In this document: one piece after another, positions 4,075 to 60,165 of the stretch
Numbering within the stretch: the stretch's first letter is position 1
How the letters are laid out: every line of letters starts with the position of its first letter
NCBI GenBank assembly: GCA_029846755.1
Contig: JARWBI010000003.1
Span: forward strand, 124,001 to 188,000
From: Falsirhodobacter flavus
GTDB lineage: Bacteria; Pseudomonadota; Alphaproteobacteria; Rhodobacterales; Rhodobacteraceae
Reading direction: 5' to 3'
Length of the DNA: 64,000 nucleotides
The notes under the pieces: generated by a model
What the model was told of the DNA's origin: nothing
Database searches by the model: none
The model's input: the letters and a program-made list of their open reading frames with translations, nothing else
Program-made: the position numbers and the translations under genes

Positions 4075-4913
4075 TCCGTTCGTTGCTTTACGTTCCGGGC
4101 AATACGCCGCGTTTTCTGCAAAAGGCGGGGCAGCGCGGCGCGGATGCCGTCATCATCGACCTTGAAGACGCGGTGCCCGAGGCCGCCAAGACCGCCGCGC
4201 GCGAGGCGCTGGCCGAAAGCGTGTCGATGGTGGGCGGGCGCGTCTTCGTGCGCGTCAACATGGGCGCGCGGTTGCTGGACGACGCCGCAGCGGCAGTGCG
4301 CGCGGGGGCGGATGGATTGTATCTGCCCAAGGTCGGCTCGGTCGACATCCTGCACCGGCTTGCCGATCACATCGCCCCGTTGGAAACGAAGCCCACCGCC
4401 TTCGTTCCGCTGATCGAAGACCCCGAGGGGCTGTTCGAGGCCCGCGCCATCGCGAAAGGCCCGCGCGTCATGGCCCTGTCGGCGGGCGGCGAGGATCTGG
4501 CCACCGCGATGGGCGCCAGACCCACCGCAGAAGTGCTGCGCGTGCCCAAGCTTTTGATCCACTATGCCGCCAAGGCGGCGGGCGTTCTGTCCTTCGGCAT
4601 GTTCCGCAGCACGGTGGACTATAGCGACAGCGCCGGTATCCGCGCCGCCGTCGAGGAGGCGCGCACCTTCGGCTTCGACGGCGCGACCTGCATCCACCCT
4701 GCCGTCGTCCCCATCCTGAACGAAGGCTTCGCCCCCACGCGCGAAGACATCGACTGGGCGCGCCGCGTTCTGGCGGCCAACGCCGCCGAGGCCAAAGCCG
4801 GGCGCGGGGCCTTCACGCTCGACGGCAAATTCATTGATGCGCCCATCGTCGCTCGGGCGCAACGTCTGCTGGACGCGATCGACGGCCAGCGCGAACACGG
4901 GAACACAGCATGA
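4071..4913 (+). CDS. CitE-like HpcH/HpaI-family CoA-ester lyase
   Basis: A 280-residue protein of the CitE/HpcH-HpaI TIM-barrel family, which performs retro-Claisen/aldol cleavage of acyl-CoA esters such as citramalyl-CoA, malyl-CoA and citryl thioesters. Visible hallmarks are the N-terminal RSLLYVPGN, the metal-binding acidic segment IIDLEDAVP, the barrel strand LYLPKV, and LIEDPEG followed by ALSAGGEDLA. It is not fused to other citrate lyase subunits, and citrate lyase alpha and gamma are absent, so it probably acts on a free CoA ester. Coupling to the CoA-transferase (4-base overlap) supports a citramalyl-CoA-like or beta-hydroxyacyl-CoA substrate. Confidence 0.88.
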   Translation: MIRSLLYVPGNTPRFLQKAGQRGADAVIIDLEDAVPEAAKTAAREALAESVSMVGGRVFVRVNMGARLLDDAAAAVRAGADGLYLPKVGSVDILHRLADHIAPLETKPTAFVPLIEDPEGLFEARAIAKGPRVMALSAGGEDLATAMGARPTAEVLRVPKLLIHYAAKAAGVLSFGMFRSTVDYSDSAGIRAAVEEARTFGFDGATCIHPAVVPILNEGFAPTREDIDWARRVLAANAAEAKAGRGAFTLDGKFIDAPIVARAQRLLDAIDGQREHGNTA

Positions 4914-5782
4914 CGACCATCGGCTTCCTTGGCTTCGGCGAGGCGTCCTTCAACATCGCCGACGGATTGCGCGAGGAGGGGATGACCGGCATCCGTGCCT
5001 TCGATGCGGCATGGCAGACCCCGCCCGCCGCCGCGATGATCGCAGATCGTGCCGAAGCGGCAGGCGTCGCGCTGGACCCGTCGGCGGCGGCCCTGATTGC
5101 GGCAGTGGACATCGTGGTCTGCTCCATCAGCGCGAATGCGGCGGTGCCGGTGGCGCGTGAGGTGGCCCCCCTGCTTCGGTCGGGGCAGGTCTATGTCGAT
5201 CTCAACTCTGCCGGTCCCGATACCAAGCTGGCGGTCGAACGCCTGATCCCCAAGGGAGTCGCCTTTGTCGATGTTGCGGTGATGGGCACGGTTCCGGGCA
5301 ATCGGCACAGGGTGCCGATGCTCGCCTCGGGGGCGGGAGCGGCCGCGTTCGCCGCCTTCGGCAACGCGTTCGGCATGGCGATCACCGCGCTGGACGGCCC
5401 GGCGGGCAAGGCGTCCGCGTCCAAGATGTTCCGCTCCATCTTCATGAAAGGCTATGTGATGCTTCTGCTGGAAGCGGTCGTCGCGGGCCGGAAATTCGGG
5501 ATCGAGGAGGATGTCCTCGCCTCGATCGGGCAATCGCTGGGCGTTGCGGATTTCCGCGCCACCGCAAGCGATCTGATGTGCCGCGCCGTCATCCATGCCG
5601 AACGGCGCGAGCATGAGATGGCCGAGGTCGTGGCCACGCTGGACAGCCTGGGCGTCGATGCCACCATGTCGGTCGCGGGCCGCGAAAAGCTGGAATGGTG
5701 TGTCCGTCAGGGCTTTCGCGAGCATTTCGGCGGCAAGCCCCCCGCCGATTTCCAAGACATCTTTGCCGCCCTCCAGACATAA
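4910..5782 (+). CDS. NAD(P)-dependent dehydrogenase, 6PGDH-like with DUF1932 C-terminal domain
   Basis: A 290-residue two-domain dehydrogenase. The N-terminal Rossmann fold opens with IGFLGFGEASFNIADGL, a divergent GxGxxA nucleotide site. The all-alpha C-terminal half, from about residue 190, matches the DUF1932 type found beside 6-phosphogluconate dehydrogenase-like domains. A lysine in GKASASKMFRS sits where beta-hydroxyacid dehydrogenases keep their catalytic lysine. It overlaps the lyase by 4 bases (ATGA) and precedes the RraA-like aldolase by 10. Relatives in aromatic-acid and hydroxy-acid operons reduce or oxidise short hydroxy/keto dicarboxylates. The substrate here is unknown. Confidence 0.85.
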   Translation: MTTIGFLGFGEASFNIADGLREEGMTGIRAFDAAWQTPPAAAMIADRAEAAGVALDPSAAALIAAVDIVVCSISANAAVPVAREVAPLLRSGQVYVDLNSAGPDTKLAVERLIPKGVAFVDVAVMGTVPGNRHRVPMLASGAGAAAFAAFGNAFGMAITALDGPAGKASASKMFRSIFMKGYVMLLLEAVVAGRKFGIEEDVLASIGQSLGVADFRATASDLMCRAVIHAERREHEMAEVVATLDSLGVDATMSVAGREKLEWCVRQGFREHFGGKPPADFQDIFAALQT

Positions 5783-5792
5783 GGAATATCCC

Positions 5793-6491
5793 ATGGCCAA
5801 TTCCGGCTTTCGCATCTTCACCCGCATCGACCGGCCCGATCCCGCGCTGGTCGAAGGGTTCCGTGGGCTTCCCGTCGCCAATATCGGGGATTCGATGAAC
5901 CGCGCCTCGATGCTGGATGCGCGGCTGCGGCGGATCAGCCGCGTCGACATGCTGGGCACGGCGTTCACCGTCAAATCGCGCGCGGGGGACAATCTGATGC
6001 TGCACAAGGCGCTGGACATGGCCCAGCCCGGCGATGTCATCCTGTTCGACGGCCATGGCGATCTTACCAGCGCCATCACGGGCGAATTGATGATGCAGAC
6101 GGCGGTGGAAAGGAAGCTCGGGGGTGTCGTGATCGACGGGGCCATCCGCGACCTTGCGACGCTGCGCGATCTGCCCTTGCCGATCTATGCAGCGGGTGTC
6201 ACCCCGGCGGGCCCCTACAAGGACGGCCCGGGCGAGATCAATGTGCCGATCACGGTGGGCGGCGCGGTGGTGCATCCCGGCGACATCATCGTGGGGGACG
6301 AGGACGGCGTCGTCGTCATCCGTCCCGCCGACGCAGCCGATATCCTGCAGAAGACCCGCAAGAAGCAAGCCGCAGAGGTCGAGAAGATGGCCGCGATCAA
6401 GGCAGGGTCCGCCGACGTATCGTGGATCGACCGCGAACTTGCCGCCAAGGGCTGCGAGATCATCGACGGCATCTGGCACTCGCGCGGCTGA
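5793..6491 (+). CDS. RraA-family aldolase/decarboxylase (HMG/CHA aldolase type)
   Basis: A 232-residue RraA-fold protein. Family members either inhibit RNase E (RraA proper) or act as divalent-metal class II aldolases, cleaving 4-hydroxy-4-methyl-2-oxoglutarate or 4-carboxy-4-hydroxy-2-oxoadipate to pyruvate plus pyruvate/oxaloacetate, often with oxaloacetate decarboxylase activity. The conserved GVVIDGAIRD segment is the metal/substrate motif of the aldolase branch, and GDIIVGDEDGVVVI is the conserved C-terminal core. The ATG at 5793 has a good AAGGAA site at 5781-5786. An upstream in-frame extension would overlap the previous gene and was rejected. As last gene of a catabolic operon an aldolase role is favoured over RNase regulation. 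Confidence 0.87.
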   Translation: MANSGFRIFTRIDRPDPALVEGFRGLPVANIGDSMNRASMLDARLRRISRVDMLGTAFTVKSRAGDNLMLHKALDMAQPGDVILFDGHGDLTSAITGELMMQTAVERKLGGVVIDGAIRDLATLRDLPLPIYAAGVTPAGPYKDGPGEINVPITVGGAVVHPGDIIVGDEDGVVVIRPADAADILQKTRKKQAAEVEKMAAIKAGSADVSWIDRELAAKGCEIIDGIWHSRG

Positions 6492-6531
6492 CGCCGCAGG
6501 GCGGCCGACAGGGATGAGCGCCTTTCAGACG

Positions 6532-6557
6532 GCGGGGGCGGATTTCTCCACCCCCGC
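6532..6557. terminator. Candidate bidirectional stem between convergent genes
   Basis: A perfect 7-base inverted repeat (GCGGGGG at 6532-6538, CCCCCGC at 6551-6557) with a 12-base loop lies in the 73-base gap between the RraA-like gene and the convergent alcohol dehydrogenase. No T-run follows, so it is only a plausible terminator or transcript-end stabiliser. Confidence 0.35.
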
Positions 6558-6564
6558 GCGTCGC

Positions 6565-7614
6565 TCAGCCTGCCATCTGTCCGATATCCATGACGAAGCG
6601 ATACTTCACCTCGCCCTTCAGCATGCGAGCATAGGCGTCCTCGATCTCGTCCGGGCGGATCATCTCGATGTCCGAGGTGATGCCGTGCTGGGCGCAGAAA
6701 TCCAGCATCTCTTGCGTTTCGGGAATGCCGCCGATCATGGATCCTGCGATGGCGCGGCGCTTCATGATGAGGTTGAACGCGTTGGGCGAGGGATGCGGCG
6801 TTGCCGGTGCGCCGACCAGCGTCATCGTGCCGTCGCGTTTCAGCAGCGCAAGGAAGGCGTCCAGATCATGCGGCGCGGCGACGGTGTTCAGGATGAAGTC
6901 GAAGCTCTTGGCGTGGGCTGCCATCTCGTCTGCGTTGCGGGACACCACGACCTCGTCCGCGCCCAGCTTCAGCGCATCCTCGCGCTTGGACTCGGAGGTG
7001 GTGAAGGCCACCACATGCGCGCCCATCGCGTGGGCCAGTTTCAGCCCCATATGGCCGAGCCCGCCGATGCCGACGACGCCGACCTTCTTGCCCGGCCCGG
7101 CACCCCAGTGGCGCAGCGGCGAATAGGTGGTGATCCCGGCGCAGAGCAGCGGCGCCACGGCGGCAAGCTGATCCTCGGGGTGGGTGATCTTCAGAACGTA
7201 ACGGTCGTGGACGACGACCGATTGCGAATAGCCGCCCAGCGTATGGCCGGGTGCGTCCGCGCTCGGGCCGTTATAGGTGCCGACCATGCCGTCGCAGAAA
7301 TTCTCCAGCCCGTCGGCGCATTCGGCGCAGTGCTGACAACTGTCCACGATGCAGCCGACGCCGACCAGATCGCCGACCTTGTGCGACGTGACATGCGCCC
7401 CGACCTCGGCCACGCGGCCCACGATCTCGTGCCCCGGAACGCAGGGATAGAGCGTGCCCGCCCATTCGCCCCGCGCCTGATGCAGGTCCGAATGGCAGAT
7501 GCCGCAATAGATGATCTCGATCCGAACGTCATGCGCGCCGACCTCGCGGCGGGTGATCTCCATACGGTCAAGCGGTTGGTCCCCCGCAGGGGTGCCATAG
7601 GCAAGAATGGTCAT
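6565..7614 (-). CDS. Zinc-dependent NAD(P) alcohol/aldehyde dehydrogenase (YahK/CAD type)
   Basis: A 349-residue medium-chain dehydrogenase of the cinnamyl-alcohol-dehydrogenase branch, the same length as E. coli YahK. Catalytic zinc ligands are visible in YCGICHSDLHQ and GHEIVG, and the structural zinc cysteines in CQHCAECADGLENFC. The cofactor loop is GIGGLGHMG, followed by a stretch (TTSESKRED) usual for NADPH enzymes. It reversibly reduces a broad range of aldehydes. I start at the ATG at 7614 (MTILAYGTPAG), which matches the family N-terminus; an alternative start ten codons upstream adds no conserved sequence. Monocistronic, facing the preceding catabolic operon. Confidence 0.9.
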   Translation of the reverse strand: MTILAYGTPAGDQPLDRMEITRREVGAHDVRIEIIYCGICHSDLHQARGEWAGTLYPCVPGHEIVGRVAEVGAHVTSHKVGDLVGVGCIVDSCQHCAECADGLENFCDGMVGTYNGPSADAPGHTLGGYSQSVVVHDRYVLKITHPEDQLAAVAPLLCAGITTYSPLRHWGAGPGKKVGVVGIGGLGHMGLKLAHAMGAHVVAFTTSESKREDALKLGADEVVVSRNADEMAAHAKSFDFILNTVAAPHDLDAFLALLKRDGTMTLVGAPATPHPSPNAFNLIMKRRAIAGSMIGGIPETQEMLDFCAQHGITSDIEMIRPDEIEDAYARMLKGEVKYRFVMDIGQMAG

Positions 7615-7762
7615 GATGAGGCCCCATCTTCTGATATCCGGCAAGTATCTAGCCCCCCGGCGGCATCGAGGCTACCCACCCGCCGCGATTTTCGGCGCCA
7701 CCTTGTCCGATTGGATGTCCATGCCGATATCGCGCGGTGAGGATTGCAACGAAAGGCACTGC

Positions 7763-39915: not shown

Positions 39916-40123
39916 TTCTCGCTCCGCCGATGTGTCCATGTCACGGCTTACGGCCTGCCGGCGCGGATATTCCCGCGCAGATGACATTTTTATGAATACG
40001 CTCTTTGCGGAAACTGGCCCCGCTTGCCGTCGGCTTCAAATTAGAACTTTACGAGACGGCCCCGCGGGGGGTGGAGCCTGCCGTCAATCCGCCTATCGTG
40101 GGCGTTCCAAGGAGGCAGGTGCC

Positions 40124-41728
40124 ATGAAAATCCGCAGCAAACTTCTGGCCAGCCACGGCATCCTTGCCATGTGCGTGACCGTCATCTGCGGCTTCATCCT
40201 TGTCGCGCTGGAGACGACGGACCGGAACCGGCGCCTGATGGAGGAGAGCTACGAGCATCTGCGCCGCCTGAACGAGCTGAACTCCGACACCAACCGGATG
40301 TCCGAGCAGATCGCCGAACTGTTCAGCGTCGGGTTGGCGGGGCAGGAGGAGGTGGGCGAGGTTTCCGCCGGGCTTCTGGCGCGACTGAACACGCTGGAGG
40401 CCAGCCTCGTGGCCGAGGTCGCGGCGGCGCGAAGCGAAAGCCAGCGCCGCCGCGAGGAGGAGATGCTGCACTGGATCCGCGAGATCAGGGACCGCAGCGC
40501 CGAATTGGCGGAAGTGGCACAGCAGGTCGCAGGCCTGCTTGGCGCAGGGCGGGTGGACGAGGCGCGGACGCTTTACGCCGAACGGGTGGAAGACGGTCTG
40601 GACGACGAGATTTCGGGCATGATGCGCGCCGCGACGGCGGCGGACGAGCGGCGGCTGCTGGATGCCATCGACCGATGGGATCGGCAGACCGAGCTTCTGC
40701 GCGCGCTGGCCATCAGCGCGGTCGTCGTGGGCACGGCGCTGGCGATCGGCAATGCGCTGGTGATGGACAGGCTGGTCTCGCGCCCCATAGCGGCATTGGC
40801 CAGCGCGGTCGACGATCTTGCCAGCGGCCGGGCGGGCCGCCCGAGCCCCGGCAGACGCGGGGACGAGCTTGGCCATCTGGCGGATCGTTTCGACCAGATG
40901 GCCCAGCAGATCGGCAAGCAGCAGGCCGAACTGCGCGCCGCCCGCGATTCGCTTGCGCTGGATGTCGCGGACCGCACCGCCAGCCTGCGCCGCCGCACGG
41001 CAGAGCTGGAGGCGGCGAATGCCCGCCTGACCGACATCAACGAAACGCGCACCCAGTTCTTCGCCGATGTCAGCCACGAATTGCGCACCCCCCTGACCGT
41101 GATCCGCGGGCAGGCCGAGGTTGCTCTTCGTCAGCCCGAAGCGACGGCGGACGATCTTCGTCACACGATGGGCCAGATCGTCCGCCGCGTGGGGCAGATG
41201 GGACGGCTGGTGGACGATCTTCTGTTCCTTGCCCGGTCCGAGGCGGGGGTCATCGGTTTCACCATTCGCGATACGATGATGCAGGAAGTTCTGGCCGAGG
41301 TGGTGATGGACGGCGGCCCGCTGAAGCGCGAGCGCAGCGTGACCATCCGGCTTCTTCAGCCGTCCGATCCGCTGATGCTGCGCGCCGATCCCGACCGCAT
41401 CCGGCAGGCCATCGTGATCCTGCTGGACAATGCGATCAGCCACGCCCCCGAAGGCAGCGCCGTCACGCTTGCCCTGGAAAGCACCGGCGACGAGGCCCGC
41501 CTTTCCGTCAGCGACGAGGGCGAAGGGTTCGCGGTCGAGGATGGCGACCGCGTGTTCGAGAGGTTCTATCGCGGCAAGACGAAGATTGCGCGCCGGGGGG
41601 CGGGGCTGGGCCTTCCCATCGCGCGCTGGATCGTGGAACAGCATGGCGGGCGCATCGGGATCGGCAAGGCCGAAATCGGCGCGCGCGTGGAGATGAGCCT
41701 GCCGCTGGCCGCACAAGGAGGTGCATGA
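40124..41728 (+). CDS. Membrane sensor histidine kinase with HAMP domain
   Basis: A 534-residue kinase. First transmembrane span at about 10-30 (ILAMCVTVICGFILVAL), a helical sensor region of roughly 170 residues rich in charged heptads (four-helix-bundle type), second span at about 203-225, and a HAMP linker (DRLVSRPIAALASAVDDLA) to about 285. The phospho-acceptor histidine is H318 in FFADVSHELRTPL. The catalytic domain has the N-box LLDNAISHA, GEGFAV and GAGLGLPIARWIV. AAGGAGG precedes the ATG by 8 bases. Stop and start of the response regulator overlap. Signal unknown; no extra cytoplasmic sensor domain. Confidence 0.9.
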   Translation: MKIRSKLLASHGILAMCVTVICGFILVALETTDRNRRLMEESYEHLRRLNELNSDTNRMSEQIAELFSVGLAGQEEVGEVSAGLLARLNTLEASLVAEVAAARSESQRRREEEMLHWIREIRDRSAELAEVAQQVAGLLGAGRVDEARTLYAERVEDGLDDEISGMMRAATAADERRLLDAIDRWDRQTELLRALAISAVVVGTALAIGNALVMDRLVSRPIAALASAVDDLASGRAGRPSPGRRGDELGHLADRFDQMAQQIGKQQAELRAARDSLALDVADRTASLRRRTAELEAANARLTDINETRTQFFADVSHELRTPLTVIRGQAEVALRQPEATADDLRHTMGQIVRRVGQMGRLVDDLLFLARSEAGVIGFTIRDTMMQEVLAEVVMDGGPLKRERSVTIRLLQPSDPLMLRADPDRIRQAIVILLDNAISHAPEGSAVTLALESTGDEARLSVSDEGEGFAVEDGDRVFERFYRGKTKIARRGAGLGLPIARWIVEQHGGRIGIGKAEIGARVEMSLPLAAQGGA

Positions 41729-42402
41729 TGGATCTTCTGATCGTGGAGGACGATGCCGAGATCGCGGAATTCCTGCAGAAAGGTTTGCAGGTAGAAGGTT
41801 ACCATCCGCACCGCGTCGGCAGTCGCGCCGAAATGGAGGCCGTGCTGGCCGACCGGACATGGCCGCTGGTCATCCTCGATCGCATGCTTCCCGATGGCGA
41901 CGGTGCCGATATCTGCGCGGACCTGCGGCGCCGGGATGCCGATGTGATGATCCTCATGCTGACTGCCCGCGACACGCTGGAGGAGAAGCTGGAGGGTCTG
42001 CGTGCCGGGGCGGACGATTACATCACCAAGCCCTTTGCGTTCGAGGAATTGCTGGTGCGGATCGAAACGCTGCTTCGCCGCAGCGGTGCGCGGCAGGAAA
42101 AGATCGAACTGGGCGATCTGAAGCTGGACCTGTCCCACAAATGCGCGACGCGCGATGGGCAGGACCTTGGCCTGACCCCGACAGAATTCGCATTGCTGCG
42201 GTTTCTGGCCGAACGGCCCGGCACCATCGTGAACCGCATGGAGATCCTTGCAGGCGTGTGGGGCAAGAGCTTCGATCCCAACACGAATCTGGTCGAGGTC
42301 TATATCGCGTATCTTCGCAAGAAGGTGGACGGGCCATTCACGACCCGCCTGATCCGCAACGTCCGCGGCTTCGGTTATGTGATCGAGGATGTCCCGGCCT
42401 AG
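41728..42402 (+). CDS. OmpR/PhoB-family response regulator
   Basis: A 224-residue regulator. The receiver domain has acidic residues EDD at 7-9, the phosphorylated aspartate D51 in VILDRMLPDGDG, and the conserved lysine in DDYITKPFAFEELL. The C-terminal winged helix carries LTPTEFALLRFLAERPGT and VEVYIAYLRKKVD, the OmpR signature. Two adjacent ATGs exist (41725 and 41728). AAGGAGG at 41715-41721 is better spaced for the second. Partner of the preceding kinase. Its 3' end overlaps the convergent kinase gene by 4 bases. Confidence 0.92.
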   Translation: MDLLIVEDDAEIAEFLQKGLQVEGYHPHRVGSRAEMEAVLADRTWPLVILDRMLPDGDGADICADLRRRDADVMILMLTARDTLEEKLEGLRAGADDYITKPFAFEELLVRIETLLRRSGARQEKIELGDLKLDLSHKCATRDGQDLGLTPTEFALLRFLAERPGTIVNRMEILAGVWGKSFDPNTNLVEVYIAYLRKKVDGPFTTRLIRNVRGFGYVIEDVPA

Positions 42403-43838
42403 AGCACCAGCGAGGCCGGAATGGCGATGGTGCAGACGATCCCCGCCGGGTCGTAGCGCAGCGACGTCTCGCCCCCCGGGGCGAACTGCATGCTTTGCGT
42501 GATGACGGTTTCGCCATATCCCCGGCGCGTCGGGGGCGCGACCGGGGGGCCGCCCATCTCGCGCCATTCGATCACCAGAAGGCCCGAAGGTGTCTCGCGG
42601 CGAGCCGTCACGGCGACGCGTCCGGTATCGGTCGAAAGCGCGCCATGCTTGACCGCGTTCGTCGTCAGTTCATGCGATATGAGGCCGAGGGCGATGGCGG
42701 CTTCTGGCGTGATGCGCTTGTCGACCCCGTCCATGGTGACCCGGCCCTTGTCGCTCCCGGCGAAGGGCGCGGTTTCCGCCTCGATCACGTCGTGGACGGA
42801 TAGGCCACTCCACGCGCTGCCGGCCAGAAGGTTGTGGGTTGCCGAAAGGGCGCGGATGCGGCTGGTGAAGGCCGTCTCGAACTCGCGATAAGAGCCGGAA
42901 TGGCGGAACGTCTGCCGGCTGATCGACAGGACCAGCGCCAGGGTGTTCTTCACGCGGTGGTCCAGCTCGCCCATCAGTAGCCGCTGCTGCCGTTCCAGCG
43001 CCTTGCGCTTGGTGATGTCGAACAGCGAAATCACGCAGCCGCCCGGCAGCCCGCCCGGCACGTCCAGCGGCGCGGCGCTCAGGATGAAGTCCTCGGCCCC
43101 TGCCAGAACCTCGATGCCGCGCACGGGCGTGCCGCCCAGAACGGTGGCCACGATTTCGGACAGGCTGGCATAGCCGGTCGAGGCGTCGGGCTGAAGCGCC
43201 AAAAGCCTTTCCACCAGCGCACCCTCGGGATCAGCGCCGATGATCCTGCGGGCCGGGGCGTTGCTGTGGCTGACGCGGCCATCTTCGTCGCAGACCAGAA
43301 CCGCTTCGTTGGCCGAGGCGATGATCGACCGGGCCGCGCGTTCGTTCTGCTCGGCCCGTTCGGCGCGGATGCGCTCGGTCACGTCGGTCAGGGTGATCGC
43401 ATGGCCGTCCACGGTTCCAAGGCGCAGCGGGTTGCTGGTGGCGACAAGGTGGCGCGCGGCGGGATGCGCGGGCACTTCCATCGACACCCGTGCGGGCATT
43501 GCAGTCAACAGTTGCTGCGCCGTTTCGCGCCCGCCCGGGACCAGATCGGCCAGCAATGTGCCCTGAACCTCGTTCGCGGCCGTGCCCAGAAGCTGAAGGA
43601 AATGCGCGTTGGCATAGAGGATCCGCCCCGCACCGTCCACCGCGGCGGCCCCGGCGTCCATCACCTCGATGAAGGCGCGGAAGGCTTCGGTATCGCCGCC
43701 GATCGAAAAGACCTCCGGGTGGTCCGCCATGCCGATGACCAGCGCGTCGACCTCGCCTTCGCGGATCGCGCGCAGGGTCTCCTCTGCCTCCAGAAGACGG
43801 CGGCGCAGTTCGGCAAGGGCATCCGCAGAGATGCTCAT
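42399..43838 (-). CDS. HWE-family histidine kinase with tandem PAS domains, in the kai operon
   Basis: A 479-residue soluble kinase with no membrane span. A short coiled coil (residues 1-30) precedes two PAS-like sensor domains (about 45-155 and 170-275, including [17 protein letters not shown] and [15 protein letters not shown]). The HWE phospho-acceptor histidine is H294 in [16 protein letters not shown]. The ATP domain has [19 protein letters not shown] and the HWE-type IEWREMGGP. It overlaps kaiB by 4 bases (ATGA), so kaiC, kaiB and this kinase form one leftward operon. It is the natural candidate output or input kinase of the KaiBC timer. No response regulator follows in the operon. Confidence 0.88.
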
Positions 43839-44116
43839 TCGTCTTGCAGCCGCAGGTTCACCAGCACCTTCTGCTCGTCCGACAGATCGCCGATGATCTT
43901 GCGCAGCGGCACCGGCAATTCGCGCACCAACGTCGGGATCGCCACGATATCGTGTTCCCGCGCCAGCTTGGGGTTCTGCCGCAGGTCGATCACCTCGATC
44001 TCGTATCGTCCGGGCAGGTGTTCTTCGCAGATCCGCTCCAGGTTCGAGATTGCGGCAAGCGATTTCGGCGTCTGCCCGGCGACGTAGAGGACCAGCTTCT
44101 TCTTCTTGGCTTCCAT
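43835..44116 (-). CDS. kaiB: Circadian clock protein KaiB
   Basis: A 93-residue thioredoxin-like KaiB. The N-terminal strand [20 protein letters not shown] and the family core [40 protein letters not shown] are intact. KaiB switches between a ground-state and a thioredoxin fold and binds the CI ring of KaiC. Three ATGs lie in a row (44122, 44119, 44116). I use the last because the AGGA site overlaps the first and is correctly spaced only for the third. It starts 9 bases after the kaiC stop. Confidence 0.93.
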
Positions 44117-44124
44117 CATCATTC

Positions 44125-45801
44125 CTACGCCTTGCGGCTCGCCTCCATCGCGGCGGCGTCGCTGTCTGCCTGACGGCGATAATCGACTTCGGCTTCGTTT
44201 ATCAAGCCGAGTTCGCGTTCGGTCGCGGCAAGCTGCGCCTGAAGTTCCGCGATCTGGGCGGTGGCCGCCCTGCGGCGATCCTCGGCGGCGGCGCGGTCGC
44301 GGGCCACTTCCAGGCGTCGGGCGGCCTCGGCCCGGCGGGCCTTGGCTTCCTCGCCCCGGCGGGCCGATCCGGTCAGGGCGCCGTTTTCGCCCAGATAGGG
44401 GGGCAGGAGGCTGATGCCCCGATCGCTCATCACGAATTCGCGGACCTGGTTGGAATGGGCCATGCCGCGGGCCTTCAGCAAATAAAGTTCGCGATTGAAC
44501 TCGCCGTTCACCTCGCGGTTCAGCATCAGGATCCACGCATCCATGAGCGAGGAAAGCCCGGCATCGGTCGCGGCCGTGCCCTCGTGCGAATGTGCCAGAT
44601 GGGTGAAGACTGCGGTGATGCCGCGCGCCTTCAGGAAATCGACCATGCGCAGAAGCATCGCCTGAACCTCCAGCCGGTCGCCCGATTCAAGGAAGGCCGA
44701 GATCGGGTCCAGCACCACGAGCGACGGGTCGAACTTCGTCACCTCGCGCAGCATGATGGCCAGATGCATCTCCAGGCTGTAGAAGGTCGGACGGGCGGCG
44801 ATGTGGCGCAGCAGGTCGCCATCGATCCACCGCTGCAGATCGAGGCCGATGGACCGCATGTTGCGGACCGCCTGAGCCGCCGATTCCTCAAACGAGAAAT
44901 AGAGCGCCCGTTCCCCTCGCGCGCAGGCCGCATCCGCGAAACTTGCCGCCAGCGACGATTTGCCCGACCCCGCTACGCCCGAGATCAGGATCGAACTGCC
45001 CCGGTGAAACCCGCCGCCCGAAACCATGGCGTCAAGGTCGGGAACGCCCGAGCGGACCCGTTCCTCGGACACCTTGTGGTCCAGCCCGAGCGAGCTGACC
45101 GGCAGGACCGAAAAGCCGTCGGCATCGATCAGGAACGGGTATTCGTTGGTCCCATGCGCCGTGCCGCGATACTTGACGATCCGCATCCGGCGGGTGGAGA
45201 TCTGGTTGTGGACGCGGTGATCCAGCAGGATCACGCAATCGGACACATATTCCTCCAGCCCCTGCCGGGTCAGCGTGCCGTCGCCGCGTTCGGCGGTGAT
45301 GACGGTGGTCATCCCCTTGTCCTTCAGCCAGTCGAACAGCCGCCGGATCTCGGCCCGCAGGATGGCGGGGTTGGAGAAGGCCGAGAACAGGCTTTCGATG
45401 GTGTCGAGGACGACGCGTTTGGCCCCGATGGAATCGATGGCCAGTTCAAGCCGCAGGAACAACCCTTCAAGATCGTAATCCCCGATCTCGGCCAGTTCGG
45501 CGGGATCGACGGCGATATGTTCGATAGCGATCCTGTCTTCGGCGATCAACTCGTCCAGTCCGAAGCCCAGCGAGGCGACGTTGCTGACGATATCGACCGG
45601 GCGTTCCTCGAAAGTGACGAAGACGCCATTCTCGCCATGCTCCCGCGCGCCCTGGATCAGGAAGGTCGAGGCGAACAGCGTCTTGCCGCACCCCGCCGAG
45701 CCGCAGACCAGAGACGGGCGCCCGGTCGGAAGCCCGCCATGGGTAAGATCGTCGAAGCCGGCAATCCCGGTGGGTGATTTCGATATGCCGACTGCCACCA
45801 T
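44125..45801 (-). CDS. kaiC: Circadian clock ATPase/kinase KaiC with C-terminal coiled-coil extension
   Basis: A 558-residue double-RecA protein. CI: Walker A GSAGCGKT at 34-41 with catalytic glutamates E65-E66. CII: Walker A GVAGSGKS at 275-282 with E305-E306. The autophosphorylation pair that is Ser-Thr in cyanobacteria is Ser417-Ser418 here ([10 protein letters not shown]). Residues from about 475 to 558 form an alanine- and arginine-rich heptad segment absent from 519-residue cyanobacterial KaiC but known in Rhodobacter-type KaiC, where it builds a coiled coil that joins hexamers. The start at 45801 places the fold ([15 protein letters not shown]) at the N-terminus. kaiA is not present in the window. 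First gene of the kaiC-kaiB-kinase operon. Confidence 0.94.
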
Positions 45802-45993: not shown

Positions 45994-46018
45994 GTCCCTT
46001 GGGAAAGGGGGTCTATCG

Positions 46019-46210
46019 CCCGTCCATAATGATCTGCGGGATTTCGACGTGGCGACGCAGCCGATCTTCATTGATCTCGGAGGAATGCCAGCACTGGTCT
46101 TCGGCGCCAAGGCCGGACTGGTCTATGCGCTGGACCGGGCCACGGGCCAGCCGCTGACCGAGGTGCAGGAGGTGCTCGTCAAGCCCGGCACCATCCCGGG
46201 CGAGCAATAG
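46019..46210 (+). pseudogene. Fragment of a PQQ-dependent sugar/quinate dehydrogenase
   Basis: An open stretch reads PVHNDLRDFDVATQPIFIDL, then GGMPALVFGAKAGLVYALDR and ATGQPLTEVQEV. This is the propeller blade of membrane-type PQQ dehydrogenases (glucose/quinate type), where the usual reading is HxDLWDxDxxxQP, PALxxxTKxGxxxxLDRxTG and VEE. Only about 60 of some 650-800 residues remain, ending in a stop after PGEQ. No start or neighbouring domains are visible. It is a relic, not a functional gene. Confidence 0.6.
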
Positions 46211-46970: not shown

Positions 46971-48260
46971 TCAGGCGAGCCCCGCCAGATGCGCGGCGAT
47001 TCCAAGGCAGGCAGCTGCCGACAGGACCGCAGGCACCCCAAGTCTCGGGCTGGACAGGGCCAGCGCCGCCAACGCGGACAAGCCCGCCGCCGTCCAATGG
47101 ATCGATGTCCAGACTGGCAGGACCATCGCCAGTGGTCCGGCCTGCGCTTCGGTCCAGATGACGTGGATGGCGAACCAGATCGCAAGGTTCAGGATGACGC
47201 CGACGACCGCCGCCGTCACGGCCGCCAGCGCCGCCGATAGCGCCCGGTTCTGGCGGAGCCGCTCCATGAAGGGCGCGCCGATCAGAATCCACGCGAAACA
47301 GGGTGCAAAGGTCACCCATGTCGCCAGAAGCCCGCCGAGGGTTCCGGCAAGCAGCGGCGAAGGCCACCCGGCCTCGCGGTAGGCTGCAAGAAAGCCGACG
47401 AATTGCAGCACCATGATAAGCGGGCCAGGGGTCGTTTCCGCCATGCCCAGCCCGTCCAGCATCTCGCCCGCCGAAAGCCAGCCCCGCGCCTCGACCGCGT
47501 CCTGCGCTACCCATGCCAGCACCGCATAGGCCCCGCCGAAACCAAGCGCCGCCATGCGCGAGAACAGCGCCGCGATGTCGGCAAAGACCCCCGGCGTCAG
47601 CAGAAGGATCGGCAGCAGCCACAGCGCCAGCGCTGCTGCTCCCGCCAGAAACGCGCCGCGCGGCGCTGGCCCCACCGACGCCGCCAGAAGCGTCCCATCG
47701 TCTGCACCGTCGTCGGGAGCGGTCCCGCGCGCACCGACGAGGCCGATCAGCGCCGCCACCGCCACGATCAGCGGGAACGGGGCGCCGAAGACAAAGATGG
47801 CCATGAAGGACGCCGCCGCCACCGTCAGCATTCCCGGCCCACGCAGGGCCCGCCTTCCGACCCGCAGCACGGCCTGCACGACGATGGCCAGCACCGCCGC
47901 CTTCAGCCCGAAGAAGGCCGCTGCCACCAGCGGCACGTCGCCGAAGCCGACATAGACCCAGCTGAGCGCCATGATCGACACCAGCCCCGGCAGGATGAAC
48001 AGCATCCCCGCCAGAAGCGCCCCGCGCACCCCGTGCATCAGCCAGCCGACATAGGTTGCAAGCTGCTGCGCCTCGGGCCCCGGCAGCAGCATGCAGAAGT
48101 TCAGCGCGTGCAGGAACCGCCCTTCGCCCAGCCAGCGGCGTTCCTCGACAAGGATGCGGTGCATGACGGCGATCTGGCCGGCCGGGCCGCCGAAGGACAA
48201 GAGCGCGATGCGTGCCCAGACACGGGCGGCATCGCGCAGGGACGGGTGGGACGGCGTCAT
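46971..48260 (-). CDS. chrA: Chromate efflux transporter ChrA (long-chain type)
   Basis: A 429-residue membrane protein with two homologous CHR domains, the bidomain form. The N-terminal signature SFGGPAGQIAVMHRILVEER, the LPGPEAQQLATYVGW motif, and the repeat in the second half (FGGAYAVLAWVAQDAV, GMAETTPGPLIMVLQFVGF) are diagnostic. ChrA exports chromate (and takes sulphate antagonistically) at the inner membrane. The start at 48260 has a GAGGAAG site. Monocistronic; no chrB regulator is adjacent, though a LysR pseudogene lies immediately downstream. Confidence 0.92.
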   Translation of the reverse strand: MTPSHPSLRDAARVWARIALLSFGGPAGQIAVMHRILVEERRWLGEGRFLHALNFCMLLPGPEAQQLATYVGWLMHGVRGALLAGMLFILPGLVSIMALSWVYVGFGDVPLVAAAFFGLKAAVLAIVVQAVLRVGRRALRGPGMLTVAAASFMAIFVFGAPFPLIVAVAALIGLVGARGTAPDDGADDGTLLAASVGPAPRGAFLAGAAALALWLLPILLLTPGVFADIAALFSRMAALGFGGAYAVLAWVAQDAVEARGWLSAGEMLDGLGMAETTPGPLIMVLQFVGFLAAYREAGWPSPLLAGTLGGLLATWVTFAPCFAWILIGAPFMERLRQNRALSAALAAVTAAVVGVILNLAIWFAIHVIWTEAQAGPLAMVLPVWTSIHWTAAGLSALAALALSSPRLGVPAVLSAAACLGIAAHLAGLA

Positions 48261-48415
48261 GCTTCCTCGCGCATAGCTCGCCCCGATGTGGCGCAGCGCA
48301 GCGCGCCCCGTCAAGTAGGCCGGATATCGCCAATCCGCGCGGTGTCATCGGTTTTTCACGCGGTGACCCCGCCCGGTCGCGCTATGGTTTCCGCCAATCG
48401 AGATGGAGGGAAGGG

Positions 48416-50140
48416 ATGGCCGATTTTCGCGTGAACACCTTGACCGACCGGAGCCAGGAACGACCGGACATCGCCGTTCTTGCCGATGGCAGCTTCGTGG
48501 TGGTCTGGGCCTCGGACTATTACAATTCCGACCGGGATATCGATGTGGAATATATCGCGATGCAGCGCTACTCTGCATCTGGGGCGCGGATCGGCGACGA
48601 GACGATCGTGTCGGATCTGGGATATGAGGTGGATGCCCCCTCGGTCACGGCCCTTGGCGATGGCGGGTTCGCCATCTCGTGGGAAGCGGAGGAGGGGCCG
48701 ACCGACATCGACACGCGCATCCACAGCCGCGTCGTCAACGCCGATGGCAGTTTTCGCGCTGCCGAGGTGAATGTCAGCCAGCCCGCACGCGAGGATGACG
48801 AATTCGACGTGCCGCAGATGGCCCCGCTTGCCAATGGCGGCTATATCACCTTTTTCGCGGGCGATGACGGCGACACCTTCACCGATGTGTTCGCGCGCGT
48901 GACCGGGGCGGATGGCAAACCCACCGATCAGTATCGGCTGAACACAACCACCAAATTCGACCAAAGCGGCGTGCAGGCCGCGCGCTTGACGAACGGCGGC
49001 GTCGTCGCTGTCTGGGACAGCGACCATTCCACCGTGAACGAGGCCGGGAACGAGGTCGAAGACGTGCGCGCCCGGATCCTCGACCCGAACGGGCGGCCGA
49101 TGACCCCCGAGATCGTCATCAGCCGCGAGAATGACGGCATGACCAATTGGCTTGGCGCCAGCTATCCCGTCAGCCATCTGGCGGTCGAAGGGTTGGACAG
49201 CGCCCGGTTCGTGGTGACATGGCGCGAGACCTGGCTCGACGCGCTGCCGGGCGGCGATACGGCGCATCTTTATCGCGGGCAGGTGTTCGACAATTGGGGG
49301 CGTGCTGTCGGAAAGGAATTCACCGTCAACAGCACCCTATCGGACATTCCGAACCACGCGGTCATCACGCGTCTGGATGGCGGTTTCTTCGTAGCCTGGG
49401 ACAGTGCGGTGAACCCCGACGATCCCTATGAGGATATTAGGGGGCAGTATTTCACCAACGCCGGGAACAAGATCGGCGGGGAGTTCACCGTTTCAACCCA
49501 CTCGGCGAACGCGCAGGAGCATCCGGCGGTCGAAACGCTGGCCGATGGGCGGATCGTCGTGACGTGGCAGACGGAATATGTCTATTCCGACAGCGTCGAC
49601 GTCGCGGCGCGCATCATCGATCCCGGGCGGATCGGCGGTCCGATGCAGACTGGGACCGCAGGTAACGATGTGATGGCAGGCACTTTCATGAAGGAAGTCA
49701 TCCGCAGTTATTCGGGAAACGACAGGCTCGGCGGCAAGGGCGGGAACGATACGCTTCTTGCCGGGTCCGGAAATGACCGGCTGGATGGCGGCGCGGGACA
49801 TGACATCCTTGGCGGCGAAGGCGGCAACGACGTTCTGATCGGGGGATCCGGCAGCGACCGATTGGTCGGCGGCACCGGCAATGACCTCATGTCGGGCGGT
49901 TCGGGGGCGGACAGGTTCGTTTTCCACACCGGGCATGGCAAGGATCGGATTGTGGATTTCACCCCCGGCGCGGATCGGATCGACCTGAGGGGCGTGAGCG
50001 CGATCACCGATTTCGACGACCTGCGCGCCGATCACGCCGTTCAGGACGGCGGCGATGTGGTCATCCGCTATGGCGCCTCCGCCTTCCGGCTGGAGGATGT
50101 GCGGCTTTCGGCGCTGGATGCGGACGACTTCCTGTTCTGA
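48416..50140 (+). CDS. RTX-type calcium-binding protein with seven N-terminal repeats
   Basis: A 574-residue, acidic, probably type I-secreted protein. It lacks a signal peptide. Residues about 10-410 hold seven copies of a roughly 55-60 residue unit centred on a DGxFVVxW-like strand (for example LADGSFVVVWASD, LGDGGFAISWEAE, LTNGGVVAVWDSD, LDGGFFVAWDSA, LADGRIVVTWQTE), which suggests a seven-bladed beta-propeller. Residues about 415-505 hold RTX nonapeptides (GGxGxDxLx), followed by a hydrophobic-acidic tail ending DADDFLF as in type I secretion signals. Function may be adhesion or surface layer. Start has GGAGGG. No transporter or peptidase domain nearby. Its end overlaps the MarR gene by 73 bases. 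Confidence 0.82.
   Translation: MADFRVNTLTDRSQERPDIAVLADGSFVVVWASDYYNSDRDIDVEYIAMQRYSASGARIGDETIVSDLGYEVDAPSVTALGDGGFAISWEAEEGPTDIDTRIHSRVVNADGSFRAAEVNVSQPAREDDEFDVPQMAPLANGGYITFFAGDDGDTFTDVFARVTGADGKPTDQYRLNTTTKFDQSGVQAARLTNGGVVAVWDSDHSTVNEAGNEVEDVRARILDPNGRPMTPEIVISRENDGMTNWLGASYPVSHLAVEGLDSARFVVTWRETWLDALPGGDTAHLYRGQVFDNWGRAVGKEFTVNSTLSDIPNHAVITRLDGGFFVAWDSAVNPDDPYEDIRGQYFTNAGNKIGGEFTVSTHSANAQEHPAVETLADGRIVVTWQTEYVYSDSVDVAARIIDPGRIGGPMQTGTAGNDVMAGTFMKEVIRSYSGNDRLGGKGGNDTLLAGSGNDRLDGGAGHDILGGEGGNDVLIGGSGSDRLVGGTGNDLMSGGSGADRFVFHTGHGKDRIVDFTPGADRIDLRGVSAITDFDDLRADHAVQDGGDVVIRYGASAFRLEDVRLSALDADDFLF
49656..49921 (+). repeat. RTX calcium-binding nonapeptide repeats
   Basis: Tandem glycine/aspartate-rich units such as GKGGNDTLL, GSGNDRLDG, GAGHDILGG, GEGGNDVLI, GSGSDRLVG, GTGNDLMSG and GSGADRFVF, encoded within the RTX gene. 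Each follows GGxGxDxUx, which binds calcium in a parallel beta-roll after export. Confidence 0.85.
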
Positions 50141-58039: not shown

Positions 58040-59218
58040 ATGCAGAACCCAGTGTTCATTCCGGGTCCGACCAATATTCCCGACTTCATTCGCAAGGCGG
58101 TTGACATGCCGACGTTGGACCACCGTTCGGCCACCTTCGCCGCGATCCTGCGCCCCGCGCTGGAAGGTGTGCGCCGGGTCGTGAAATCCGACCGGGCGGA
58201 GGTGCTGGTTTTTCCCTCGACCGGGACCGGCGGGTGGGAGGCTGCGATCTCCAACACCCTTTCCCCCGGCGACCGCGTCCTTGCCGCCCGGCACGGCATG
58301 TTCAGCCACCGCTGGGTCGACATGTGTGAACGCCACGGGCTGGAGATGGAGGTGGTGGAGGCCCCGTGGGGCGCCGCGCTTCCGGCCGACCGCTTTGCCG
58401 AAATCCTCGGGGCGGATCGGGATCACCGGATCAAGGCGGTCATTGCCACCCATAACGAGACGGCCACGGGCGTGCGGTCCGACATCGCCGCCGTCCGGCA
58501 GGCGCTGGACGGGGCTGGGCATCCGGCGCTGCTGCTGGTGGATGGCGTCAGTTCCATCGGGTCGATGGATTTCCGCATGGACGAATGGGGCGTGGATATC
58601 GCCGTCACCGGATCGCAGAAGGGATTCATGCTGCCCCCCGGCCTGGCGATCCTTGCGCTGTCGCCGCGGGCGATGGCGGCGGTGAAATATGCCGCCTTGC
58701 CCCGCTGCTTCTTCGACTTCCGCGACATGGCCGATGCGCAGGCGAAGGGGCTCTATCCCTACACCCCGCCGGTCGGGCTGTTGAACGGGCTGCATGTCGC
58801 CTGCGAGGCGTTGCTGGCCGAGGGGCTGGACGCGGTCTTTGCCCGCCATCGCCGCATCGCGGATGGGGTGCGGGCGGCGGCCGGCGCATGGGGCCTGCCG
58901 CTTTGCGCAAATGATCCGGCGGCGTTTTCTGATACCGTCAGCGCGATCCGCACGCCGGACGGGTTCGACGCGAACCTGCTGGTGCATCGGGCTGCCACCG
59001 TCTACGGCACCTTCTTCGGCACGGGGCTTGGCCAGCTTTCGGGCCGGGCCTTCCGCATCGGGCATCTGGGCAGCATGACCGACGCGATGGCCCTGTCCGG
59101 CATCGCCACGATGGAGATGTGCATGGCCGATCTGGGCCTGCCGATCCGGCTCGGATCGGGCGTTGCCGCCGCGCAGGACGTCTATCGCCACCGCGATGCG
59201 ATGAGGGTGGCGGCATGA
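58040..59218 (+). CDS. bhcA: Aspartate-glyoxylate aminotransferase BhcA
   Basis: A 392-residue class V PLP aminotransferase. It begins QNPVFIPGPTNIPDFIRKAV, has PTLDHRSATFAAILRPALEG, LVFPSTGTGGWEAAISNTLS and the PLP lysine K194 in VTGSQKGFMLPPG. BhcA transfers the amino group of aspartate to glyoxylate, giving oxaloacetate and glycine, the step that closes the beta-hydroxyaspartate cycle. First gene of the operon, with a strong GAGGAGGAG ribosome site. Overlaps bhcB by 4 bases. Sequence alone resembles serine-glyoxylate aminotransferases; the neighbourhood settles the call. Confidence 0.92.
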   Translation: MQNPVFIPGPTNIPDFIRKAVDMPTLDHRSATFAAILRPALEGVRRVVKSDRAEVLVFPSTGTGGWEAAISNTLSPGDRVLAARHGMFSHRWVDMCERHGLEMEVVEAPWGAALPADRFAEILGADRDHRIKAVIATHNETATGVRSDIAAVRQALDGAGHPALLLVDGVSSIGSMDFRMDEWGVDIAVTGSQKGFMLPPGLAILALSPRAMAAVKYAALPRCFFDFRDMADAQAKGLYPYTPPVGLLNGLHVACEALLAEGLDAVFARHRRIADGVRAAAGAWGLPLCANDPAAFSDTVSAIRTPDGFDANLLVHRAATVYGTFFGTGLGQLSGRAFRIGHLGSMTDAMALSGIATMEMCMADLGLPIRLGSGVAAAQDVYRHRDAMRVAA

Positions 59219-60165
59219 TCCCGACCTTCGACGATGTGCTGCTGGCGCAGGATCGCATCCGCCCCCATATCCACCGCACCCCGGTCCTGACCTCGCGCAT
59301 GATCGACGAAATGGCGGGCGCGAGCCTGTTCTTCAAATGCGAGAACTTGCAGAAGGCGGGCGCGTTCAAGGCGCGCGGGGCATCCAATGCGGTGTTTGGA
59401 TTGTCGGAAACGCAGGCGGGACGCGGGGTTGCAACGCATTCATCGGGTAATCACGGAACATGCCTTGCCTATGCCGCCGGTCGGCGGGGCATCCCCTGCA
59501 CGGTGGTCATGCCCCACACCGCCCCGCAGGCCAAAAAGGATGCCGTTCGTGGATACGGCGCCCGCGTGGTTGAATGCGAGCCGTCCACCAGCAGCCGCGA
59601 GGCAGTCTTTGCCGAGGTCATGGCGGGAACGGGGGCGGAATTCGTCCACCCCTATAACGATGTGCGTGTCATCGCGGGGCAAGGCACCTGCGCGCTGGAG
59701 TTGGAGACGCAGGTGGATGGGCTGGATGCGGTGATCGCCCCCATCGGCGGGGGGGGGATGGTGTCGGGCACCGTCCTTGCGCTGTCCGAAGCCGCGCCGG
59801 ATCGCCGCATCTTCGCCGCCGAGCCGGAGCAGGCAGACGATGCCGCCCGCAGCTTCCGCGCAGGCCGCATCATTGCCGACGATGCGCCAAGCACCATCGC
59901 CGACGGCCTGAAGGTGCCGCTGAAGGAACTGACATGGCATTTCGTCCGGCAGATCGAGGATATCCTGACAGTGTCCGAGGCCGAAATCGTCGCGGCGATG
60001 GAACTCATCTGGAAAAGGCTCAAGATCGTGGCCGAGCCGTCCAGCGCCGTGCCGCTGGCCGCGATCCTGAAGAACCGCGACATCTTCGCGGGCCGGCGCG
60101 TCGGCGTCATCCTGACCGGCGGCAATGTGGACCTGAGGAAACTGCCATGGGGAGGCATCGAATGA
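59215..60165 (+). CDS. bhcB: beta-Hydroxyaspartate dehydratase BhcB
   Basis: A 316-residue PLP fold-type II enzyme of the serine/threonine dehydratase family. PLP lysine K52 in KAGAFKARGASNAV, substrate loop THSSGNHGTCLAYA, and the glycine-rich phosphate cup APIGGGGMVSGTVLAL are intact. BhcB dehydrates (2R,3S)-beta-hydroxyaspartate to iminosuccinate. No C-terminal ACT regulatory domain is present, consistent with this branch and unlike biosynthetic threonine deaminase. Start overlaps the bhcA stop, and its own stop overlaps bhcC. Confidence 0.92.
   Translation: MIPTFDDVLLAQDRIRPHIHRTPVLTSRMIDEMAGASLFFKCENLQKAGAFKARGASNAVFGLSETQAGRGVATHSSGNHGTCLAYAAGRRGIPCTVVMPHTAPQAKKDAVRGYGARVVECEPSTSSREAVFAEVMAGTGAEFVHPYNDVRVIAGQGTCALELETQVDGLDAVIAPIGGGGMVSGTVLALSEAAPDRRIFAAEPEQADDAARSFRAGRIIADDAPSTIADGLKVPLKELTWHFVRQIEDILTVSEAEIVAAMELIWKRLKIVAEPSSAVPLAAILKNRDIFAGRRVGVILTGGNVDLRKLPWGGIE

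Follow-up and report, generated by a model that had tools for sequence, protein, structure and literature searches.

The closest described relative of the system discussed here is KaiBC of Cereibacter (Rhodobacter) sphaeroides (PDB 8DBA, 8FWI and 8FWJ), whose KaiC forms a dodecamer through a coiled coil of its tails, is phosphorylated independently of KaiA, takes the ATP/ADP ratio as its cue and has been read as an hourglass (PMC10076222). The words 'histidine kinase' and 'operon' do not occur in the main text of that article. An operon of kaiC, kaiB and a PAS histidine kinase gene has been described in Rhodopseudomonas palustris and R. sphaeroides (PMC4794148), further reports place a kinase or a PAS protein with R. 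sphaeroides kaiBC (PMC5520375, PMC6627678, PMC10931921), and two of them suggest a role in redox input (PMC5520375, PMC10931921), and a kinase or GGDEF/EAL gene lies behind almost all of the non-cyanobacterial kaiC-kaiB clusters compared in another study (PMC3164672). Here we describe such an operon in Falsirhodobacter flavus, located in a 64,000-nucleotide stretch of contig JARWBI010000003.1 (positions 124,001 to 188,000, assembly GCA_029846755.1; hereafter the window), together with a segment at the N-terminus of its kinase that appears to be new: it was found so far only beside KaiB-KaiC timers, and the literature searched gave no prior description of it. With a probability of roughly 0.6, we read the operon as a KaiA-independent timer of the R. 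sphaeroides type with a dedicated kinase as signalling arm, which would dock through this segment and pass its phosphate to a regulator encoded elsewhere.

The operon lies head to tail on the minus strand of the window, from 45801 to 42399, and comprises the following elements:

44125..45801 (-): kaiC, 558 amino acids; CI and CII ATPase domains, Ser417-Ser418, and a tail (479-558) homologous to the coiled coil of R. sphaeroides KaiC
43835..44122 (-): kaiB, 95 amino acids counted from the first of three ATG codons
42399..43838 (-): PAS-PAS-HWE histidine kinase, 479 amino acids; HWE_HK at residues 291-372
43659..43823 (-): segment at the kinase N-terminus (approximately residues 6-60), restricted to kai loci; proposed KaiB-KaiC docking element

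The stop codon of kaiC and the start of kaiB (44122; alternatives at 44119 and 44116) are separated by 2 nt, and the end of kaiB overlaps the start of the kinase gene by 4 nt (ATGA), which confirms the linkage of the three genes claimed in an earlier interpretation made from the DNA letters (the sequence-only reading). The genome (4.02 Mb in 51 contigs) gave one match to kaiB, one to kaiC at E<=1e-30 (4 of 16 first-look kaiC candidates scored) and none to kaiA, as that reading had led us to expect.

KaiC has its two Walker A motifs and its two Glu-Glu pairs, Pfam matches two KaiC ATPase stretches in it, and residues 417-418 are Ser-Ser, so that the two intact ATPase sites and the serine pair were read correctly. 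The protein is 87% identical to KaiC of Falsirhodobacter algicola and 78% identical to that of C. sphaeroides, scores 951 bits against 8DBA and about 338 bits against KaiC of Synechococcus elongatus, and falls below the cut-off of the NCBIfam model TIGR02655, circ_KaiC (353 < 546 bits). These comparisons support the assignment made earlier, namely a Rhodobacter-type KaiC of a KaiBC system rather than the cyanobacterial KaiC1 of the KaiABC oscillator. In a tree of 102 KaiC rows built with a quick method, the window sequence groups with Falsirhodobacter within an alphaproteobacterial clade of 34 rows (support of 100 in the SH-like approximate likelihood ratio test, SH-aLRT) that includes C. sphaeroides and whose members carry HWE kinases; the tree is without any cyanobacterial KaiC1 row, and the placement among the KaiC1, KaiC2 and KaiC3 groups therefore rests on the circ_KaiC cut-off and on the scores against 8DBA and S. 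elongatus KaiC. In cyanobacteria, two serines are the pattern of KaiC2 (PMC5520375).

The 80-residue tail of KaiC is rich in Ala, Arg and Glu and aligns gap-free to the solved coiled coil of 8DBA. The sequence-only reading had described it as heptad residues; in a simple periodicity test the best a/d score was equalled by 27% of 5000 shuffles and is not significant, so that the coiled-coil claim rests on the alignment and not on visible heptads. By homology, KaiC would form a dodecamer joined through its C-terminal tails, and this copy may likewise behave as an hourglass. Relatives were compared in a set of 86 loci, made up of the best 80 of at least 557 loci found by KaiC alone in 84,980 species genomes, five plasmid loci and the window. 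The serine pair is Ser-Ser at 84 of these loci and replaced by Ser-Ala at the other two, and the long tail is present at 84, the remaining two sequences stopping at a contig edge. Since both traits are near-universal among these relatives and kaiC-kaiB-PAS/kinase operons are in print, what had been held to be distinctive is present and yet normal for its kind. The operon is a further member of the three-gene C. sphaeroides system, whose biochemistry and gene order are published, and shares with it the order kaiC-kaiB-HWE kinase, Ser-Ser, the tail, the absence of KaiA and the N-terminal segment of the kinase. The kinases themselves are only 46% identical, whereas KaiC and KaiB reach 78% and 80%. 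The R. palustris operon is alike as far as its three-gene order with a PAS histidine kinase goes (PMC4794148). F. algicola, Falsirhodobacter sp. 20TX0035 and Rhizobium sp. BG4 all have KaiC, KaiB and a segment-bearing HWE kinase.

At most of the loci, the protein encoded behind the last kaiB opens with one conserved segment of about 55 residues. Among the 84 loci that can be judged (two end at kaiC), 77 have kaiB and the segment, two have kaiB only, five have neither and none has the segment without kaiB; for the 82 loci that extend 1200 nt or more past kaiC these counts are 75, 2, 5 and 0, and both elements are present at the two shorter loci. When two evenly drawn samples were searched with a profile of the segment, there were matches in 5 of 385 genomes of Alphaproteobacteria (E<=1e-6), all beside kaiB, and in 11 of 398 from the phylum as a whole (E<=0.001), ten beside kaiB and one beside a kaiC-kaiB remnant. 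Combined, these are 15 distinct genomes with one match each (that of F. flavus being in both samples), and kaiB lies directly upstream in 14 of them. Of the 385 alphaproteobacterial genomes, 14 hold kaiB. Nine of these lack the segment, and seven of the nine encode a KaiC of 36-39% identity; G617, a genome outside the 14, encodes a KaiC of 50% identity and lacks both kaiB and the segment. Every candidate was scored in 40 genomes chosen for a segment-bearing kai locus, which yielded 42 matches in 41 proteins, all of them in kai loci (30 were returned as loci, 30 of 30 with kaiB within 1.5 kb; ten were placed in kai loci by their coordinates, and the two in genome G1032 were read directly). Furthermore, two tblastn queries against 72,556 plasmids found the segment in 13 distinct records, all among the 16 that carry kaiC, and in the three kaiC records without it KaiC is only 35-39% identical.

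Several loci show variations on this arrangement. In two Betaproteobacteria (L122, L134) the segment occurs twice in one protein with a PAS-like domain behind each copy, and Methylobacterium sp. J-077 has two loci of kaiC-kaiB-kaiB-hybrid kinase (L235, L236) with a segment copy in each. The kai kinase on a plasmid of Sinorhizobium sp. B11 (L079, 9976-11458) is broken into two overlapping reading frames and annotated as two genes. In genome G766 (L196, 4577-7941) an 84-residue in-frame remnant fuses positions 3-39 of the KaiC model to positions 60-91 of KaiB; in the neighbouring protein only positions 1-24 of the 54-position segment are matched and PAS sequence still follows, a natural joint decay of kaiC-kaiB and the adjoining segment.

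Within an alignment of 31 kinases, the segment core (residues 9-35) is the most conserved stretch, above the catalytic domains: its mean majority frequency is 0.81, followed by 0.73 for residues 51-66, 0.65 and 0.61 for the HWE and ATPase regions, and 0.59 and 0.49 for the second and first PAS domains. Residues A24, I25, D31 and A32 of the segment are invariant. Two AlphaFold2 models agree on a helix at residues 5-26, two strands (32-35, 42-45) and a second helix that begins at 50 or 51 and ends at 59; in the model of residues 1-165 the first helix reaches a predicted confidence (pLDDT) of 92-93 and the PAS blocks 80-95. Searches with 23 members each against Pfam and NCBIfam gave chance-level matches only (best E 0.029 and 0.015), as did a sequence comparison with solved chains (best E 0.12). 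Foldseek with the segment and PAS domain lists PAS and LOV proteins among the first 50 matches, and with the whole kinase it lists the Brucella LOV histidine kinase first. In the literature searched, letter strings of the segment had no match and no description of it was found; among the articles listed, one names both KaiC and HWE, KaiC being incidental in the text available (PMC10359499).

It is possible, though in our view doubtful, that the segment is a mere N-cap or dimerisation helix of the PAS domain in an old family kept in the kai operon by descent, with no contact to Kai proteins. The segment always stands ahead of PAS, its helix could be a dimer coil, and gene order alone would hold family and operon together. 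However, no copy was seen outside kai loci in genomes with dozens of first-look candidates, the core is conserved above the kinase and PAS domains, the segment persists although the C-terminal half is swapped, and it is shortened where kaiC and kaiB are lost (G766, one case).

Several observations weigh against a docking role. Two loci (L135, L144) have kaiB without the segment, and the five loci that lack both are all from Ignavibacteria; together with L135 they fall into one Ignavibacteria-centred clade and are therefore not independent cases. In the two genome samples at most 16-17 first-look candidates were scored per genome (up to 63 were found among those listed), so copies away from kai may have escaped, and the plasmid queries were single sequences at E<=1e-4. 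Residues 36-50 are weakly conserved (mean majority 0.47 in the 31 kinases), and the blocks covering residues 21-50 have a pLDDT of 53-67 in the model of the whole kinase and of 52-72 in that of residues 1-165. High conservation with weak packing would fit a part that folds on a partner, but the low pLDDT may also reflect a poor prediction. Finally, the invariable position before a PAS domain is one that an elaborated PAS N-cap could also take.

Behind the segment and PAS, the proteins diverge into an HWE kinase, a hybrid kinase with receiver, a GGDEF-EAL protein or, in Bacteroidales, a kinase-free protein of about 235 residues (types assigned by scripted sequence motifs, for four HWE members also by Pfam). 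The latter follow kaiC-kaiB-kaiB at L113, L141, L147 and other Bacteroidales loci and consist of the segment together with a PAS-like region and a helical end, in which no kinase or enzyme motif was seen. This variety bears on the question of whether the kinase feeds the timer or reads it. As input, its PAS domains would sense oxygen or redox state and relay it to KaiB-KaiC with the segment as contact, a role proposed for R. sphaeroides, where the period of the rhythm varies with oxygen (PMC5520375, PMC10931921), and the kinase does have two matched PAS domains. On the other hand, the part behind the segment is swapped among unrelated proteins (GGDEF-EAL proteins, receiver-bearing hybrid kinases and the PAS protein of about 235 residues) and thus looks like output, and in vitro ATP/ADP resets R. 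sphaeroides KaiC in the absence of the kinase (PMC10076222). We therefore consider the input role unlikely, and the kinase is probably output rather than input. Beyond this operon, the balance tips slightly towards the segment being a portable Kai-docking module of the clade with Ser-Ser and long-tailed KaiC, which would link KaiA-less timers of bacteria and archaea to the outputs of the host, be it HWE kinase, hybrid kinase, c-di-GMP enzymes or a PAS-only protein, as an adaptor that has no relation to the KaiB-like domain in SasA.

The kinase itself is matched by HWE_HK of Pfam (E 8.7e-25, 87.7 bits versus a cut-off of 22.8) and by two PAS domains. HWE kinases are recognised by a histidine within an HRxxN box and by a W-x-E motif; here these are HRVKN at residues 294-298 and WRE at 425-427, with H294, R295 and N298 invariant in the 31 kinases. 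It is 71% identical to the kinase of F. algicola, and its HWE domain is one of 13 matches in the genome (12 over the cut-off), of which the kai operon holds one. In the cyanobacterial SasA-RpaA pair, too, a histidine kinase is thought to read the Kai state. SasA carries a KaiB-like N-terminal domain, to which the segment is dissimilar: an N-terminus of the SasA type is ruled out for this kinase by a probability of 0.2% in hhalign of the segment with KaiB and by the lack of a match to such a domain, and PRK09303 matched KaiB and not the kinase. Kinases of the CikA type have GAF and pseudo-receiver domains, neither of which was matched by Pfam here. The arrangement also differs from the Kaic-HK group, in which kaiC is followed by the kinase, the kinase has a KaiB-like N-terminal part (Nt_HK) and kaiB is absent (PMC3164672); kaiB is present here.

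That the operon holds no response regulator, as the sequence-only reading had stated, holds true, the nearest receiver gene being convergent with the kinase and overlapping the open reading frame of another kinase:

41721-42402 (+): OmpR-type response regulator open reading frame, convergent with the kai kinase, ends overlapping by 4 nt
39932-41728 (+): neighbouring kinase open reading frame, overlapped by that of the OmpR-type regulator

We take this pair (39932-42402, +) to be a HAMP-type kinase with an OmpR-type regulator. Adjacency, convergence and the 4-nt overlap would make the regulator a conceivable partner of the kai kinase; because it overlaps the frame of its own kinase and is not adjacent to the operon in F. 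algicola, C. sphaeroides and Rhizobium BG4, we regard such a partnership as very improbable. A search for a dedicated receiver near HWE-type operons found any receiver in the flank at 8 of 32 loci, the OmpR-type gene of the window included, with an arrangement in common only between the near-identical pair L079/L111.

In Alphaproteobacteria, a usual target of HWE/HisKA2 kinases is PhyR of the general stress response. The F. flavus genome has, at 4245-7638 of another contig (L062, C22), a gene for a PhyR-like protein with NepR-, EcfG- and HisKA2-kinase-like genes, which by resemblance we take to be a general stress response locus. All 19 segment-bearing genomes tested gave matches to PhyR-like proteins, those in G1043 being partial only; to our knowledge PhyR is near-universal in Alphaproteobacteria, and as the pathway is so common in the class, this co-occurrence is weak evidence and belongs with the points held against our interpretation above. 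PhyR may nonetheless serve as a candidate target.

In the mechanism that we favour, KaiC would autophosphorylate on Ser417/Ser418 at high ATP, and binding of KaiB would raise its ATPase activity and aid the return to the dephosphorylated state, both steps being established for the C. sphaeroides proteins. The timer would thereby run like an hourglass that is reset by the ATP/ADP ratio, as established for C. sphaeroides and presumed here. The kinase would read the state of the timer through the segment of some 55 residues, which consists of a helix and a predicted beta hairpin, lies ahead of the first PAS domain and may dock on the KaiB-KaiC assembly and alter kinase activity via the PAS domains. 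As the operon is without a response regulator, the phosphate would pass to a regulator outside it, with PhyR as first candidate. The sequence-only reading had named the kinase as signalling arm from its overlap with kaiB; this part of it gains support from the Kai-restricted segment.

The Kai proteins might instead act in a stress response without timekeeping, as reported for Legionella KaiC2-type proteins (cited in PMC5520375), and PhyR, the likely target, also belongs to a stress pathway. Yet this KaiC is the same molecule as the hourglass KaiC of C. sphaeroides, the fitness of R. palustris in daily cycles depends on KaiC (PMC4794148), and stress role and timing are not mutually exclusive; a purely stress-related function thus seems rather improbable.

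With regard to its distribution, the system is rare in the family: KaiC of at least 79% identity occurs in 2 of 295 sampled genomes including F. flavus, and three more have one of 27-31% (E<=1e-30). The three-gene set is found on plasmids of C. sphaeroides (nine kaiC-bearing records, plasmids of 114-157 kb), F. algicola and Rhizobium sp. BG4. Flanking genes in the latter two and in Falsirhodobacter sp. 20TX0035 are unrelated to those of the window, and in a megablast comparison of 24 kb of the window with plasmids, the F. algicola plasmid aligned only over 42442-45789, the operon minus its flanks, which means that the unit moved without flanks or that the flanks were replaced. RepC had no match on the contig of the window (C33) and four matches on other contigs of the genome. 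KaiB is matched by its Pfam family and is 92% identical to F. algicola KaiB. Within the 34-row KaiC clade, 33 rows were scanned for kaiB, with exactly one copy in 31 and the other two ending at a contig edge; the 34th (G051) also has kaiB. Outside the clade (51 loci that extend 1200 nt or more past kaiC), 40 loci have two kaiB genes, four have one, five none, one three (L118) and one four (L114), the tandem pair being usual there.

Elsewhere in the window, a short open stretch that stops early lies opposite the region upstream of kaiC (45995-46210, +); it resembles the end of a PQQ-dependent dehydrogenase and is perhaps a gene remnant. A protein with glycine-aspartate repeats near its C-terminus, which we assume to be of the RTX type, is encoded at 48212-50140 (+), and the DNA at 58043-60000 is similar by megablast to bhcA-bhcB (beta-hydroxyaspartate pathway) of Paracoccus plasmids.

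For KaiA-less KaiBC oscillators, structures and kinetics are known, and the route from them to action in the cell is the question that the segment addresses. A Kai-restricted segment common to unrelated outputs offers a concrete handle for binding tests in the solved R. sphaeroides system, and it may help to identify Kai-controlled proteins in genomes and with them the pathways under such timers.

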